From: Actinomycetes bacterium
Lineage (GTDB): Bacteria; Actinomycetota; Actinomycetes; Propionibacteriales; Propionibacteriaceae
Direction of reading: 5' to 3'
Assembly (NCBI GenBank): GCA_029778515.1
Contig: JAKOQD010000200.1
Span: 1-5,661 of the forward strand
DNA length: 5,661 nucleotides
Shown here: positions 1 to 5,661 of the stretch, one piece after another
How the letters are laid out: every line of letters starts with the position of its first letter
How positions within the stretch are numbered: the first letter of the stretch is position 1
Program-made: the position numbers and the translations under genes
Notes under the pieces: model-generated
What the model was told of the DNA's origin: nothing
Databases searched by the model: none
Seen by the model: only the letters and a program-made list of their open reading frames with translations

Positions 1-122
1 GCGAGTTCCTCGCCGCGTTCCCACAGCTTCATGGACTCCGACAACGGCACGCTGCCGGTCTCGAGTTGCCGGACGATCTCGACCAGCTGGTCGCGGGCCT
101 CTTCGTAGCTGAGCTTGGTCAT
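1..122 (-). CDS. xseB: Exodeoxyribonuclease VII small subunit (partial, 3' end outside window)
   Basis: This is the small subunit of exonuclease VII, which binds the XseA catalytic subunit in a cytoplasmic complex that degrades single-stranded DNA to oligonucleotides. Reading leftward from ATG at 122, the first 40 residues begin MTKLSYEEARDQLVEIVRQ and continue with LETGSVPLSESMKLWERGEEL. This fits the XseB family pattern: a Y-E-E-A start, a helix with L..IV..LE.G, then L.ESM.LWERG before a second helix. Family members are usually 70-80 residues, so about half is visible and the rest runs off the left edge. The ATG overlaps the xseA stop codon (ATGA at 119-122), so translation is probably coupled to xseA. 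No separate promoter is needed. Confidence 0.93.
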   Translation of the reverse strand, partial: MTKLSYEEARDQLVEIVRQLETGSVPLSESMKLWERGEEL

Positions 123-1345
123 GGCTGCTCCTGGGGTTCGACATCGGTGACGGTCAGTTCGAGGCGTCCGTCCGCGAGACGGGCGGTGATCGCGGCGCCC
201 ACGCTGGTGGCCGCGACTCGATCGACGGTGCCGCCATCGGCGTCCGCGAGGATCGCGTAGCCGCGGTTTAGCGTGGCGCGGGGTGACAACGAGCGCACCC
301 GCTCGATGGTGTGTCCGAGGCCCAGCTGCTCCTCGCGGAGCCGCGCCTCGATCGCTCGCCGCAGCCGCGTTTCCTGGTGCGCCAGCCGTTCGCGATGCCC
401 CTCCAGCGACGCGGACGGGTCGCGCAGCACCGGACGGCTGCGCAGTTCGGCGAGACGACGCGTTTCGGTGCCCGCCCGGTTCAGCACGGCCTGTCGCACC
501 CGGCCGATCGCGTGCGCGATCGCCGTGGCTTCCGCGGTCGCGTCCGGCACCACCCGTTTGGCGGCGTCCGTCGGCGTGGACGCGCGCAGGTCGGCCACCA
601 GATCGAGGATGGGGGTGTCGGTCTCGTGTCCGATCGCGCTCACCACGGGCGTCCGGCACGCGTGAACGGCGCGCACCAGCGCCTCGTCGCTGAACGGCAA
701 CAGGTCTTCCAACGAGCCGCCGCCCCTGGCGATGATGATGACGTCCACCTCCGGCATGCGGTCCAGCGCCCGGACCGCATCGATCAACTGCTCGACCGCA
801 GCTGCGCCCTGCACCAGCGTGTGCCGCACCTCCAGCACGGCGGCCGGCCAGCGGCGTCCGATGTTCTCGACCACGTCGCGCTCCGCCGCGCTCTGCGTTC
901 CGGTGATCAACCCGATCCTTCGCGGCAGGAAGGGCAAGCGCTTCTTCAGCGCCGGGTCGAACAGGCCTTCGGCCTGCAGCATGCGTTTGCGCTGCTCGAT
1001 CGCGGCCAGCAGCCGACCCTCCCCGGACGCACGCAGCTCGCGGCATTCGAAGGTCAGGCTGCCCGACTTGCTCCACACCGTCGGACGTACCCACGCTGCC
1101 ACCACGGTGCCTTCGGTTAGGGGACCGGCGGCGTCCAGCACGGCGAGTGAGGTGGAGAGGGTCACCGAGACTTCAGCCAGGGTGTCGCGCATGGTTAGGA
1201 ACTGGGTTACCGATCCGGCGCGGCGCTTGATCTCAATCAGTTGGCCTTCCACCCAGATCGGGTTCAGCCGTTCGACCCACTGCTTGGTCGCGGCGACCAC
1301 AGCTCGCAGCGGTTGGGGCTGCTCCGGCGAACTCGGCATTGGCAC
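119..1345 (-). CDS. xseA: Exodeoxyribonuclease VII large (catalytic) subunit
   Basis: This is the catalytic subunit of exonuclease VII, a metal-independent nuclease for single-stranded DNA used in repair and recombination. The 408-residue product is of normal family length. Residues about 13-105 form the N-terminal OB-fold (WVEGQLIEIKRRAGSVTQF at 31-49). The catalytic domain follows with PRRIGLITG (141-149), the conserved RGGGSLEDLLPFSDE (207-221), and GHETDTPILDLVADLRASTP (239-258) leading into TDAA. A charged helical arm spans about 265-350, and the closing SPRATLNRGYAIL motif is at 354-366. The start is taken as GTG 1345 because a TAGCGT -10 box lies 6 bases before it and no Shine-Dalgarno is visible, suggesting a leaderless mRNA. 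ATG 1339, two codons in, is the alternative. The gene is followed by xseB with a 4-base overlap and diverges from ispH across a 224-base gap. Confidence 0.96.
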   Translation of the reverse strand: MPMPSSPEQPQPLRAVVAATKQWVERLNPIWVEGQLIEIKRRAGSVTQFLTMRDTLAEVSVTLSTSLAVLDAAGPLTEGTVVAAWVRPTVWSKSGSLTFECRELRASGEGRLLAAIEQRKRMLQAEGLFDPALKKRLPFLPRRIGLITGTQSAAERDVVENIGRRWPAAVLEVRHTLVQGAAAVEQLIDAVRALDRMPEVDVIIIARGGGSLEDLLPFSDEALVRAVHACRTPVVSAIGHETDTPILDLVADLRASTPTDAAKRVVPDATAEATAIAHAIGRVRQAVLNRAGTETRRLAELRSRPVLRDPSASLEGHRERLAHQETRLRRAIEARLREEQLGLGHTIERVRSLSPRATLNRGYAILADADGGTVDRVAATSVGAAITARLADGRLELTVTDVEPQEQP

Positions 1346-1569: not shown

Positions 1570-2535
1570 ATGCCAGATGCCAAGCGAGTGGTGGTCGCCG
1601 CGCCCCGGGGCTATTGCGCCGGTGTGGATCGCGCAGTGGTCACCGTGGAGAAAGCGCTGGACGTCTACGGTCCGCCGGTCTACGTGCGCAAGCAGATCGT
1701 GCACAACCGGCACGTGGTCGAGGACCTGGAGGCCCGCGGCGCGATCTTCGTTGAAGAACTGGCCGAGGTGCCCGTGGGTGCAACGGTCGTCTTCTCCGCG
1801 CACGGGGTTTCGCCGGCGGTTCATGCCGAGGCCGCCGATCGCGGGCTCAAGACGATCGATGCCACCTGTCCGCTGGTGACCAAGGTGCACAACGAGGCCA
1901 AGCGGTTTGCCGGCCAGGGCATCCAGATCCTGCTGATCGGGCACGCCGGCCACGAAGAGGTCGAGGGGACGACCGGCGAGGCTCCGGAGCACATCACGCT
2001 GGTGCAGCACCCCGATGATGTGGCGGGAGTCGAACTTGCCGACCCGAGCAAGGTCGCCTGGCTGAGCCAGACCACGCTCAGTGTCGATGAGACCTGGGAG
2101 ACGGTCGGACGCCTGCGGGAGAAGTTCCCGGCGCTGATGGACCCGCCCAGCGACGACATCTGCTACGCCACCCAGAACCGCCAGTCGGCGGTCAAGCAGA
2201 TCGCCGCGCATTCCGACCTGGTGATCGTCGTCGGGTCCAGGAATTCGTCGAACTCGGTGCGCCTGGTGGAGGTCGCGCTGGAGGCGGGCGCGAAGGCCTC
2301 CTATCGTGTTGACAACGCCAGCGAGATCGACGAAGCCTGGCTGGACGGCGTGCGCTCAGTCGGCGTCACCTCTGGCGCCTCGGTGCCGGACGCGCTGGTA
2401 CAGGGCGTGCTTGATTTCCTCACCGAGCGCGGATTCCCGCCCGCGGTGGAGGAGCGGCTGACCGAGGAGAACCTCACCTTCGCCCTGCCGCCGGAGCTCC
2501 GTAAGGACCTGCGCCGCAAGACCATCGGCGACTGA
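1570..2535 (+). CDS. ispH: 4-hydroxy-3-methylbut-2-enyl diphosphate reductase (IspH/LytB)
   Basis: This enzyme catalyses the final step of the MEP pathway, the reductive dehydroxylation of HMBPP to isopentenyl and dimethylallyl diphosphate, using a 4Fe-4S cluster in the cytoplasm. The 321-residue product has all three cluster cysteines: C16 ([12 protein letters not shown]), C100 ([12 protein letters not shown]) and C198 ([11 protein letters not shown]). Substrate-binding and catalytic motifs are also present: H45 (IVHN), H78 (SAHGV), H128 and E130 (GHEEVEGT), TT at 168-169 ([10 protein letters not shown]) and SRNSSNS (223-229). GVTSGASVP (265-273) is the expected C-terminal motif. The open frame extends upstream to 1435, but homology begins only at ATG 1570, and the TAGAAT box placed for a leaderless start supports that codon. 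GTG 1564 is in frame but too close to the box. It is monocistronic in this window and diverges from xseA. Confidence 0.97.
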
Positions 2536-2631: not shown

Positions 2632-2640
2632 TGCTAATGT
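2632..2640 (+). promoter_or_regulatory. Extended -10 promoter for the Cys-leader/urocanase-like operon
   Basis: TGC followed by TAATGT (2635-2640) is an extended -10 element (TGN plus TANNNT). Transcription would start near A2647, about 38 bases before the GTG of the cysteine-rich leader ORF. There is no good -35 match near 2612-2618, as is common for extended -10 promoters. It is the best promoter candidate between ispH and the leader ORF. Confidence 0.45.
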
Positions 2641-2672: not shown

Positions 2673-2678
2673 GGGAGG
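2673..2678 (+). promoter_or_regulatory. Strong Shine-Dalgarno site of the Cys-rich leader ORF
   Basis: GGGAGG lies 6 bases before GTG 2685, continuing as GTGGGCT. It is the best ribosome-binding site in the window and decides the start of the short ORF. GGTGGG at 2677-2682 overlaps it and is complementary to CCCACC at three downstream places (2737, 2775 and 2857), so the site could be masked by local RNA pairing. Confidence 0.75.
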
Positions 2679-2684
2679 TGGGCT

Positions 2685-2759
2685 GTGCACGAACGTTGTT
2701 GTCGCATGTGTTGTCGGGCGATGTGTTGTCGTGGCACCCACCGCTCGGACTGTTGCTGA
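2685..2759 (+). CDS. Cysteine-rich leader peptide (24 aa), putative cysteine-responsive attenuator
   Basis: This short ORF starts at GTG behind a strong Shine-Dalgarno and ends at TGA 2757-2759. Its product begins MHERCCRMCCRAMCCRG and ends THRSDCC. Eight of 24 residues are cysteine, all in four adjacent pairs (5-6, 9-10, 14-15, 23-24). Seven of the eight codons are TGT, the less usual cysteine codon in GC-rich genomes. It has no signal peptide and no CxxC spacing of a metal-binding protein. Short ORFs with consecutive cysteine codons upstream of sulfur genes are described in mycobacteria as cysteine-responsive attenuators, although those examples are leaderless. Here the ORF lies 167 bases before a urocanase-like gene and a DUF917 gene linked to sulfur release, which fits that role. 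Ribosome stalling at low Cys-tRNA would be the signal. A small metal- or redox-active peptide is less likely. Confidence 0.72.
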   Translation: MHERCCRMCCRAMCCRGTHRSDCC

Positions 2760-2830
2760 GGGCACAGCTTCCAACCCACCAAGCCGACCACTAGGTCGAG
2801 CCCCGCGAATCGTTCAAAGCAGCCGCTCCA
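2760..2830 (+). promoter_or_regulatory. C-rich, G-poor stretch after the leader ORF, possible Rho-loading region
   Basis: The RNA after the leader stop codon is C-rich and G-poor. From 2768 to 2794, 13 of 27 bases are C and only 3 are G. There is no long hairpin with a U-tract. Such unstructured C-rich RNA is the usual type of Rho entry site. It would become free of ribosomes when the leader is translated to its end, giving a way to stop transcription when cysteine is plentiful. This is an inference from composition only. Confidence 0.3.
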
Positions 2831-2871
2831 GCCGATATTTCGGCACTGTGGCTCCGCCCACCGGAGGTCAC
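2831..2871 (+). promoter_or_regulatory. Two adjacent hairpins, the second masking a GGAGG sequence
   Basis: GCCGA (2831-2835) pairs with TCGGC (2840-2844) around a TATT loop. Next, CTCCG (2852-2856) pairs with CGGAG (2862-2866) around CCCAC. GTG (2848-2850) and CAC (2869-2871) can extend that stem past a small internal loop. The second hairpin contains GGAGG (2863-2867), the only Shine-Dalgarno-like sequence before the urocanase-like gene. No ATG, GTG or TTG follows at normal distance; the in-frame codon 5 bases on is GTT 2873. The hairpins could control translation or may be incidental. Confidence 0.35.
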
Positions 2872-2926
2872 CGTTTCTAGTCCCGGCGCATCCGCCCGTC
2901 CCAGCAGCATCCTCGCCGGCCCCGGC

Positions 2927-4681
2927 GTGCCGATCGTCGCCCAGCGCGGCGGTGAACTCCGCGCCCGGAACTGGCGTGCGGAGGGTCTGCTGCGGATGTT
3001 CGAGAATGTCCTCGAAGTCGCTGAGTCTCCCGACGAGTTGATCGTGTATGCGTCCCTCGGTAAGGCGGCCCGCTCCTGGCCGGACGCCCACGCCATCGTC
3101 AACGCCCTGCTCGAACTGGACGAAGCCGAGACCTTGGTGCTCGCCTCCGGTGCGCCGGTCGGCGTGCTGAGCACCGGCACGCCCGCACCGCTGGTGCTCT
3201 CGGCGGTCAACAACACAGTCGGACGCTGGTCGGACGCAGACCGCTTCTACGCTCGCGCCGCCGCCGGCCAGACGATGTGGGGTGGGCTCACTGCGGCGGC
3301 GTGGCAGTACATCGGCCGGCAGGGAGTGCTGCAGGGCACCTACGAGCTGTTCGGCACGATCGCTCGGACGCACTTCGGGGCCGCACCCGGATCGGAGGCG
3401 GACGCCCTCTCCGGCCGCTGGGTGCTCACCTCCGGCCTCGGCGGCATGGGCTCCGCGCAGCCGATCAGCGCACGCATGCTTGGTCTGAGTTCCCTAACGG
3501 CCGAGGTGGACCCCGTGAAGGCCGAACGCCTAATGGCTACCGGAGCGCTCGACCTGGTCACCGAAAGCCTTGACGACGCCCTGGCCGCACTGCATCAGGC
3601 CAAGTCGGCAGCGGAGACTGTCGCGATCGCGCTGCTCGCCAACGCAGCGGACGTCTTCGCAGAGATCGCCGCGCGTGGGGTCGTCCCCGACATCGTCACC
3701 GACCAGACAGCTGCCCACGACGCCCGTTACGGCTACCTGCCGCGCGGCTACGACCTCGCCGGCTGGCGGACGCTTCGGGAGACCCAGCCTCGGCAGGTGG
3801 AGCGCGACGCGCGTGCGTCCATCGCTGCGCAGGTGGAGGCCATGCTGGCCCTCGCGACCGCTGGCGCGGTGGTGTTCGAGAACGGCAACAACCTGCGGGT
3901 GCAGGCGATCGAGCATCTCGGTGCGGCCGCGACCGATCAAGTGAACCGCATTCCGGGCTTCATGGAGGCCTATCTGAGGCCGCTGTTCGCCCGGGGGATC
4001 GGGCCGTTCCGATGGGTGGCGCTCTCGGGTTCGGTAGCAGACCAACTGGTGCTGGATGACCTCGCTGCCCGTTCGTTCCCGCGGCGCCCTGAGGTCGCGC
4101 GCTGGATCGAACTGGCTCGTGAGTACGTGCCGCAGCAGGGCCTGCCAGCCAGGTCCTGCTGGCTGGGACATGGCGAACGCTCGGCGTTCGCGGTGGCGGT
4201 CAACGAGCTGGTCGCGGACGGCACGCTGGTCGCGCCGGTGCTGTTCAGTCGTGACCATCTCGACTCCGCGGCCATGACCCACCCGCGAATCGGCACCGAA
4301 GGCATGCGGGACGGCTCGGACGGGTCCACCGACTTCCCGCTCCTTGACGGGATGCTTCTCGCCGCTACCGGTGCCGACCTGGTGGCCATCCACTCCGGAG
4401 GTGGCGGGTACTCGGGTTGGATGCAGTCGGCCGGTGTCTCGATCGTCGCGGACGGGCGTGCCGAGACGGCCGTCCGGCTGCGTCGCGCCCTCGACGCTGA
4501 CACCGGTCTCGGCGTGCTGCGCCACGCCTCCGCAGGGTATACCGAGGCCGAGGCCAGCGTGGCCGCCGGCGGCGAGACCGGGGAGGCGCCGGTCAACTGG
4601 GTGCGTCCAGCTTCACCGTCATCCCGGCGTACGTCCGGTCATTGGAACGACAGTTCAGCCAGCGTTAGGGAGAACCGATGA
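2927..4681 (+). CDS. Urocanase-family hydratase, probably S-methyl-thiourocanate hydratase
   Basis: This belongs to the urocanase family, NAD+-dependent cytoplasmic enzymes that add water to urocanate-type substrates. Counting from GTG 2927 (584 residues; family about 550), the following are seen: GRWVLTSGLGGMGSAQP (163-179), NAADVF (239-244), VTDQTAAHD (257-265), GYLP (269-272), RPLFARGIGPFRW (351-363), QGLPARSCW (404-412) with catalytic-type C411, and DHLDS (443-447). Several positions differ from true HutU: YGGIGRAARNW is YASLGKAARSW (41-51), YGQMTAGSW is WGGLTAAAW (118-126), FDYGNN is FENGNN (317-322), RETEAM is IGTEGM (455-460) and HHGGGVGMG is HSGGGGYSG (489-497). No other hut genes are seen here. 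The partner is DUF917, with an ATGA overlap. S-methyl-thiourocanate is therefore favoured over urocanate or thiourocanate as substrate. No Shine-Dalgarno precedes GTG 2927, although the frame is open from 2795. The last 30 residues look unlike the family and may reflect a frame change. Confidence 0.85.
   Translation: MPIVAQRGGELRARNWRAEGLLRMFENVLEVAESPDELIVYASLGKAARSWPDAHAIVNALLELDEAETLVLASGAPVGVLSTGTPAPLVLSAVNNTVGRWSDADRFYARAAAGQTMWGGLTAAAWQYIGRQGVLQGTYELFGTIARTHFGAAPGSEADALSGRWVLTSGLGGMGSAQPISARMLGLSSLTAEVDPVKAERLMATGALDLVTESLDDALAALHQAKSAAETVAIALLANAADVFAEIAARGVVPDIVTDQTAAHDARYGYLPRGYDLAGWRTLRETQPRQVERDARASIAAQVEAMLALATAGAVVFENGNNLRVQAIEHLGAAATDQVNRIPGFMEAYLRPLFARGIGPFRWVALSGSVADQLVLDDLAARSFPRRPEVARWIELAREYVPQQGLPARSCWLGHGERSAFAVAVNELVADGTLVAPVLFSRDHLDSAAMTHPRIGTEGMRDGSDGSTDFPLLDGMLLAATGADLVAIHSGGGGYSGWMQSAGVSIVADGRAETAVRLRRALDADTGLGVLRHASAGYTEAEASVAAGGETGEAPVNWVRPASPSSRRTSGHWNDSSASVRENR
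4668..4672 (+). promoter_or_regulatory. Shine-Dalgarno site of the DUF917 gene
   Basis: GGGAG lies 5 bases before ATG 4678 and inside the 3' end of the urocanase-like frame. It supports ATG 4678 as the start and allows re-initiation or coupled translation across the ATGA overlap. Confidence 0.7.
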
Positions 4682-5661
4682 GAGAACTCACCAGTGCGGA
4701 CGCACGCCATGCGGTGCTCGGCGGCGGCATCCTGGCCTGCGGTGGCGGCGGCTGGAAGCACCACGGCGAGCTGATGGGAACGCTCGCCACCAGCCTCGAG
4801 CGGCCCGTGCTGGCCTCGATCGATGAGTTGCCTGAAGCGACCTGGGTAGCCACCGTCTCGGCGATCGGTGCTCCGGCAGCGAAGGATTGGGAGATCCGTC
4901 CGGTCGACTACGTGCACGCGTTGCAGGAGCTGATCCGGGTGGCGGAGGTGCCCATCGGTGCGGTGATGACTGCGCAGAATGGGTATTCCACAACGGTGAA
5001 CGGGTGGATCCAGTCCGCTGTGCTGGGCGTGTTGGTGCTCGACAGCGCTGGCGACGTGCGCGCCCACCCGACCGGCAAGCTCGGCGGACTTGGCCTGGGC
5101 GAGCGGGCCGGCTACGAGTCCATCCAGGTGGTCTCCGGCGGCAACCGCGAACTGCACGGGCATTTCCAGTCGGTCAATCGTGGAAATCTGAACACCGTCG
5201 ACGACGTGCTGCGCGACATCTCGGTGCGGGTCGGTGGCTTCATCGCGTCCGCACGCAATCCGGTCGAACTTGACTGGGTGAAGGCCAACGGTGCGCACGG
5301 CTCGATCTCGCTCGCGCTCGACCTTGGCCGCGACCTGGCCGCGGCGCAGGCGCCCGGGAATGCGGACGCGGTGGTCGAGGCGGTCGCCCAGCGCCTGGGT
5401 GCGCAGGTGGTGGACGCCGGTCCGTTGCGGATCGAGAAGCGAACCAGGACCATCGGGGGCTGGGATCGTGGCACCTTCCGGATCGGCGACCACACCGTCC
5501 CGTACCTCAACGAGTACATGGCGGTCGACAACGACGGCGGACGAGTGGCGACCTACCCCGACACCATCGTCATCCTCGACCGCGGTACCGGCGAGGGCCT
5601 GGCCGTGAAGGACGCGGGCCGCGGTGGTCAGGACGTTGTCCTGCTGGTTGCGAAGGCCGGA
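4678..5661 (+). CDS. DUF917 / S-methyl-thiohydantoin desulfurase family protein (partial, 3' end outside window)
   Basis: The frame is open for 328 codons to the window edge; family members are about 360-370 residues, so only the last few dozen are missing. The N-terminal domain has the glycine-rich GGGILACGGGG (15-25), SAIGAP (61-66), AVMTAQNGYSTTVNG (95-109) and VLDSAGDVRAHPTGKLGGLG (120-139), the family's D..g..RAHPTG region. The C-terminal domain has the expected GGWDRGTFRIGD (260-271) and YPDTIVILDRGTGE (293-306) motifs. Pfam now names these domains after S-methyl-thiohydantoin desulfurase, which hydrolyses the product of S-methyl-thiourocanate hydratase and releases methanethiol; other members accompany hydantoinases. 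C21, H28, H29, H130, H160 and H162 are candidate metal or catalytic residues, but I cannot assign them. It has its own Shine-Dalgarno and is coupled to the upstream gene by ATGA, which strongly implies a shared pathway. No signal peptide or membrane segment is seen. Confidence 0.85.
   Translation, partial: MRELTSADARHAVLGGGILACGGGGWKHHGELMGTLATSLERPVLASIDELPEATWVATVSAIGAPAAKDWEIRPVDYVHALQELIRVAEVPIGAVMTAQNGYSTTVNGWIQSAVLGVLVLDSAGDVRAHPTGKLGGLGLGERAGYESIQVVSGGNRELHGHFQSVNRGNLNTVDDVLRDISVRVGGFIASARNPVELDWVKANGAHGSISLALDLGRDLAAAQAPGNADAVVEAVAQRLGAQVVDAGPLRIEKRTRTIGGWDRGTFRIGDHTVPYLNEYMAVDNDGGRVATYPDTIVILDRGTGEGLAVKDAGRGGQDVVLLVAKAG

Follow-up and report, generated by a model that had tools for sequence, protein, structure and literature searches.

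The stretch of DNA analysed here, 5661 bases from a member of the Propionibacteriaceae and hereafter referred to as the window, carries xseA and ispH and, after a gap of 391 bases from ispH to a GTG at position 2927, two further genes that run in the same direction. A short, cysteine-rich open reading frame (ORF) lies within this gap, together with a number of associated signals. The features of the window are, in order of position:

119-1345, minus strand: xseA (TIGR00237, 375.6 bits)
1570-2535, plus strand: ispH (NCBIfam profile match)
2635-2640, plus strand: TAATGT, a weak candidate -10 element found by eye, aligning with TAGGCT in the related locus L001
2656-2669, plus strand: inverted repeat ATTGA-CGAT-TCAAT, directly 5' of the leader Shine-Dalgarno sequence (SD) and forming a hairpin in folding
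2673-2678, plus strand: GGGAGG, leader SD, with a 6-base spacer to the GTG; its L001 counterpart is AAGGAGGTGGGACGTG
2685-2759, plus strand: cysteine-rich leader ORF, translated as (M)HERCCRMCCRAMCCRGTHRSDCC and a stop; the L001 ortholog lies at 3550-3639
2760-2862, plus strand: C-rich stretch, poorer in G, that follows the leader stop, a possible Rho loading region
2852-2866, plus strand: local hairpin CTCCG-loop-CGGAG, read from the sequence, in which the next gene's SD is paired
2863-2875, plus strand: GGAGG, five bases and GTT, the probable initiation region of the hydratase gene, suggested by a like arrangement in L001 and by homolog N-termini
2927-4681, plus strand: thiourocanate hydratase-like gene; GTG 2927 is its first canonical start and the real start is probably near 2873
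4678-5661, plus strand: thiohydantoin desulfurase-like gene (DUF917/S-Me-THD), extending past the end of the window

The initial annotation had proposed a urocanase/DUF917 operon as the target of the ORF and, while the downstream pair is indeed in place, family ranking and structural matches point to a different pathway. Among NCBIfam profiles, the top family for the first product is thiourocanate hydratase (NF058530), with 702.8 bits against a curated cut-off of 930; the hutU profile yields 570.9 bits, which exceeds its own cut-off of 375 and ranks under NF058530. Ten homologs picked among the 120 matches listed present similar NF058530 scores (671.6-710.6 bits), and the hydratase therefore looks like a sister group that falls below the NF058530 cut-off. 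Its top solved structure is 7ned (607 bits, with the next solved urocanase at 493), which is labelled urocanate hydratase in its structure file and which we take to be a thiourocanate hydratase. Thiohydantoin desulfurase (NF058529) is in turn the top family for the second product, both for the incomplete copy in the window (310 bits) and for the full-length copy in L001 (312.3 bits), in each case below the cut-off of 440. The Pfam domains S-Me-THD_N and S-Me-THD_C both score above cut-off in the desulfurase, for which a sequence search of solved structures returned no relative. An ordinary urocanase of histidine degradation was considered and rejected, the score ranking in the window being opposite to that of a second hydratase-family copy in the genome that harbors L001 (G001). 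This second copy, 45% identical to the hydratase of the window, scores 893 bits with hutU (cut-off 375) and 641.7 bits with thiourocanate hydratase, and is by its profile scores a plain hutU. The pair in the window is better read as a putative thiourocanate hydratase and thiohydantoin desulfurase, that is, as the sulfur-releasing steps of ergothioneine breakdown, and the genes next to the leader probably strip sulfur from ergothioneine. A desulfuration pathway, rather than histidine degradation, makes a link with cysteine sensible.

The ORF begins with GTG at 2685 and ends with TGA at 2757-2759, and its 24 codons encode the peptide VHERCCRMCCRAMCCRGTHRSDCC, in which eight cysteines form four CC pairs and seven of the eight Cys codons are TGT. 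Conceptual translation confirms the 24-codon, eight-cysteine ORF with a GTG start and a strong SD that had first been noticed here. In 2000 simulations, ORFs of up to 40 codons with at least eight cysteines were expected at 0.0005 per 5661-base window, and no such ORF appeared in 5000 simulations of the 391-base gap; a chance origin of the leader ORF is very unlikely. Taking the leaders together, 16 of their 21 Cys codons are TGT, whereas the neighbouring genes use TGT for only 3 of 25 (Fisher P 1.4e-5), and this excess of what is here the rarer Cys codon would suit a sensor based on stalling. Upstream of the ORF, a ribosome-binding site and a 5' leader had both been claimed; the former is borne out by GGGAGG and its 6-base spacer, while a short 5' leader is likely. 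A sigma-70 promoter scan detected no promoter. The inverted repeat that precedes the leader SD is a candidate operator or RNA hairpin, and so is the repeat TTGAAAG-ATGGA-CTTTCAA found right before the leader SD in L001, the sequence of which is unlike that of the window.

L001 belongs to a second Propionicimonas genome and shares with the window the ispH neighbour and a hydratase that is 79% identical, the main leader comparison being one between two MAG-derived sequences. A hydratase 100% identical to that of the window is attributed in one source to a Propionicimonas MAG. Between ispH and the hydratase gene, L001 presents AAGGAGGTGGGAC-GTG and the ORF VRNRCCPSICSAMCCCRTHCRTCLLTRHS, with SD, GTG start and frame all kept. 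In an ungapped alignment of 24 codons, the two leaders agree at 12 residues and at six of the eight Cys positions; the probability of at least six shared Cys positions is 0.005 if common ancestry is ignored. The peptides differ in length (24 residues in the window and 29 in L001) and in their C-termini, and most Cys positions stay. For two of the shared cysteines, the only codon difference is TGT/TGC, and substitutions fall on the three codon positions in numbers of 8, 8 and 12, with the third position not favoured; the coding signal therefore rests on the Cys codons and not on third positions. Beyond the desulfurase gene, L001 and its extension L122 continue with a HAL-like lyase, a ProV-like ATPase, two permeases and a binding protein, none of which is visible in the window, which ends inside the desulfurase gene. 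The lyase (6768-8513) is without the MIO serine (GSVGA-GDL, versus GSVGASGDL in 1gkm) and ergothionases are not known to contain MIO. It matches the ergothionase 6s7j at 1.8e-41, ordinary HALs scoring higher, and may be regarded as a candidate ergothionase. Among solved structures, the binding protein matches ergothioneine-binding EgtUC (9egh) best, at 92.6 bits, with other betaine-type proteins, Lmo1422 (4z7e, 91.8 bits) and ProX (87.2 bits), close to it.

A filter defined once L001 and a further locus, L019, were known (SD, no more than 45 codons, five or more cysteines, a Cys content of 25% or higher and a CC pair) was applied to both strands of the best 80 of 363 loci from genome contigs (753 kb). 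It returned two matches, L001 and L019, both on the sense strand and beside hydratase and desulfurase genes; no matches were obtained in 12 simulated sets, and a further 514 kb of loci gave only the L001 and L019 places again. Looser matches, in which no SD was required, amounted to 12 in the best 80 of 363 loci against 4.4 expected and were rejected as noise, and weaker leader candidates are therefore not trusted. The leader of L019 (MVWTSCCRRCCCGE, 6790-6834) starts one base past the desulfurase stop and sits 5' of a family-5 ABC binding-protein gene, not of the hydratase gene. It is unlike the leader of the window, and a C-rich, G-poor stretch separates it from the binding-protein gene.

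Within the family, the hydratase is matched in 51 of 198 genomes at E <=1e-100 and in nine at 64% identity or more, and the same nine genomes hold the desulfurase (293 genomes drawn from the order). Several kilobases per side were scanned in six of these nine, and 1.5 kb per gene side in G024, G029 and G035. In addition to the window, a Cys leader is found in two of the nine: G001, with L001, and G181, the locus of which is the same sequence as L019. A leader consensus run against 195 family genomes recovered G001 and a three-mismatch match in G132, with a backward control also matching twice. A peptide search in three genomes gave one weak match in G125 (E 0.23) and is insensitive, since it missed the leader present in G001. 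Conserved Cys-pair ORFs upstream of orthologous gene pairs, which the initial annotation had put forward as a check, were hence found in part, with L001 keeping six of eight cysteines but a leader in only two of nine genomes. Conservation is narrow: L001 only for the leader type of the window, plus the unlike leader of L019.

The hydratase gene was originally placed 167 bases after the leader stop, a distance that holds for GTG 2927, its first canonical start. This GTG, however, is probably not the real start, which homologous N-termini and the GGAGG-N5-GTT arrangement common to L001 place near 2873, with a gap of 113 bases between leader and gene. No ATG, GTG or TTG is present at the expected start position, and the GTT at 2873 is a possible start codon. 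At the equivalent of window positions 2863-2875, the protein of a relative (P0003) reads PPEATVSN. GC skew in the region that follows the leader is -0.23 in the window (2760-2885), -0.22 in L001 and -0.39 in L019; in 27 stretches upstream of the hydratase at other loci it spans -0.27 to +0.21, with three of the 27 at or below -0.18.

Matches to the PAPS-reductase family were obtained in 107 of 195 family genomes, from which 30 places were taken as loci and 18 of them extended. These genes are adjoined by a gene of the nitrite/sulfite reductase family (in L162 the top NCBIfam match has 333 bits and is below cut-off), probably coding for a sulfite reductase, which was matched in 17 of the 18 extended loci; the copy in L170 starts off the locus. 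Up to 420 bases 5' of the reductase gene, ORFs that contain a CC pair and at least three cysteines occur in 5 of the other 16 loci as a raw count, and one of the five, in L178, looks like chance. Leader-like peptides can be read in L162 (HVDFARVRSSQCCCGC, minus strand, about 4167-4214) and, 5' of the reductase gene, in L166 (PHVDFARVRSSQCCRGC). Both resemble the Ms4527A leaders of NCBIfam below cut-off, the L166 peptide matching NF042936 at E 0.001 and NF042934 at E 0.0034, again below cut-off. In L168, a polycysteine ORF ending in RVCCCCLCPVGC (7498-7584) precedes by 183 bases the gene for a sulfate-type binding protein (TIGR00971, 147.1 bits; cut-off 155.5). The L168 ORF is leaderless-looking, with TATGGT just 5' of an ATG at 7510. 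Cysteine leaders seem to occur at sulfur genes of this family, but not everywhere.

The Cys codons kept in L001, the association of leader and genes, and the Cys leaders found at sulfate-assimilation genes make a cysteine-responsive leader the best reading and lend support to the attenuator class assigned at the outset. We thus read the ORF as a translated leader peptide that would sense cysteine-tRNA and act as an attenuator of the ergothioneine/thiourocanate desulfuration operon, with a probability of roughly 0.7. We infer that the leader is translated, which way it responds and how it is coupled to the operon. With ample Cys-tRNA, ribosomes would clear the eight Cys codons fast and leave the leader on reaching its stop, and operon expression would stay low; when cysteine is scarce, they would stall inside the leader, downstream expression would rise and the cell would recover the sulfur of ergothioneine. 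For the coupling step, we weakly prefer a model in which early, Rho-type termination within the C-rich stretch is relieved to one in which the downstream SD is unmasked. It counts against our reading that, in a simple Rho model, an early-stalled ribosome would lay bare the C-rich stretch rather than cover it. No intrinsic terminator was predicted in 2500-2960, folding energies are no better than those of shuffled sequences (z 0.23 and -0.94) and an Rfam search of the window gave no match. The lack of a terminator, together with a downstream SD pairing that modelled stalling leaves unchanged in the window and L001, leads us to keep the cysteine-tRNA sensor while leaning only weakly towards early-termination relief as its coupling.

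In the mycobacterial polycysteine ORF of Canestrari et al. 2020, a stalled ribosome reportedly makes the SD of the following gene accessible. A similar translational attenuation, in which stalling within the Cys tract would let the ribosome break a structure that hides the hydratase SD, is unlikely here, yet deserves to be taken seriously. Folding models do pair the downstream SD in the absence of a ribosome (unpaired probability 0.19 in the window and 0.04 in L001), and stalls at codons 6, 10 and 11 of the L019 leader make the next start more open (0.29-0.57, compared with 0.10 before); codons 7 and 12, on the other hand, give no opening. Moreover, the pairing is constant with the ribosome modelled at any of the 25 window codons (GGAGG unpaired 0.18-0.26) and at the Cys codons or the stop codon of the L001 leader (0.03-0.04). 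Over the same 25 codons, the start region of the window shifts mostly towards closed (0.41-0.69 stalled versus 0.62 free). In a further set of stall models, openness of the GTT is mostly lower (0.18-0.66 stalled versus 0.55 free). A conserved RNA element, as opposed to a peptide, is distinctly unlikely. It would operate through pairing of the leader SD (GGUGGG) with ACCCAC inside the ORF, thus switching translation of the leader itself, and the modelled pairing probability is substantial (0.68 in the window and 0.98-1.0 in L001), with both blocks conserved; however, no compensatory change is seen between the two genomes, the probability in the window drops to 0.26 in a shorter transcript and Rfam holds no matching family.

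The eight paired cysteines and the good SD would also be expected of a small Cys-rich protein acting in trans, for instance in metal or sulfide binding, with an incidental position in the operon. This is quite improbable, given that length and C-terminus vary while most Cys positions are constant, that profile searches detect no family match and that Cys leaders of very different sequence precede other sulfur genes. A chance or relic ORF is at odds with the simulations, and we consider it the least probable explanation; the sequence that separates ispH from the hydratase gene would then be G+T-rich and untranslated. It would account for the single close ortholog, for the absence of the ORF beside these genes in the other examined loci, L019 excepted, and for a substitution pattern that is not clearly coding, but not for the strong SD and the start codon that L001 retains, the gene association or the TGT codon bias.

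More broadly, and with somewhat less than even confidence, we suggest that ergothioneine may serve some Actinobacteria as a reserve of cysteine or sulfur, with Cys-tRNA directly controlling its uptake and desulfuration by way of an SD-initiated Cys-pair leader. This leader would belong to a larger group of cysteine-sensing leaders within the Propionibacteriaceae, and the first enzyme gene would have an unusual GTT start. If true, cysteine sensing by the ribosome would be linked to the breakdown of a compound usually discussed as an antioxidant, suggesting that ergothioneine is also a sulfur store or a foraged source of sulfur. Cysteine attenuators would then extend past the mycobacteria and past leaderless mRNAs, and the switch would be directly testable. 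In the open-licence literature, we found no report of cysteine attenuation of ergothioneine/thiourocanate breakdown, and PMC9386245 contains nothing on cysteine attenuation.

The locus can be set against several known systems. PMC7653990 describes ergothioneine breakdown via ergothionase and PMC9732360 the ergothioneine transporter EgtU; the window holds genes homologous to this pathway for the hydratase and desulfurase, and L001 for the lyase and binding protein. Like the leaders of trp-type attenuators and of ilvB1 (PMC13236596), the peptide is rich in the presumably regulated amino acid, although those attenuators have an intrinsic terminator and no terminator-like site lies between leader and gene in the window. 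NCBIfam describes the same kind of element in NF042936 (Ms4527A family Cys-rich leader peptide) and NF042934 ('putative leader peptide', cis_reg_atten), neither of which matches the peptides of the window and L001 with E values of up to 10 allowed. Mycobacterial polycysteine leaderless short ORFs are treated in PMC9031893, PMC13236596 and PMC9094748, earlier candidates for Cys-rich upstream ORFs in mycobacteria in PMC4633059, and translation attenuation is the name given to the mycobacterial case in PMC13236596. These ORFs share with that of the window their short length and clustered Cys codons directly 5' of sulfur or cysteine genes, a role that in the window is assigned by homology. In contrast to the leaderless mycobacterial ORFs, however, that of the window is preceded by an SD (GGGAGG, with an SD also in L001) and probably by a short 5' leader, and it has four spaced CC pairs and a different sequence, with ergothioneine desulfuration as its putative target.
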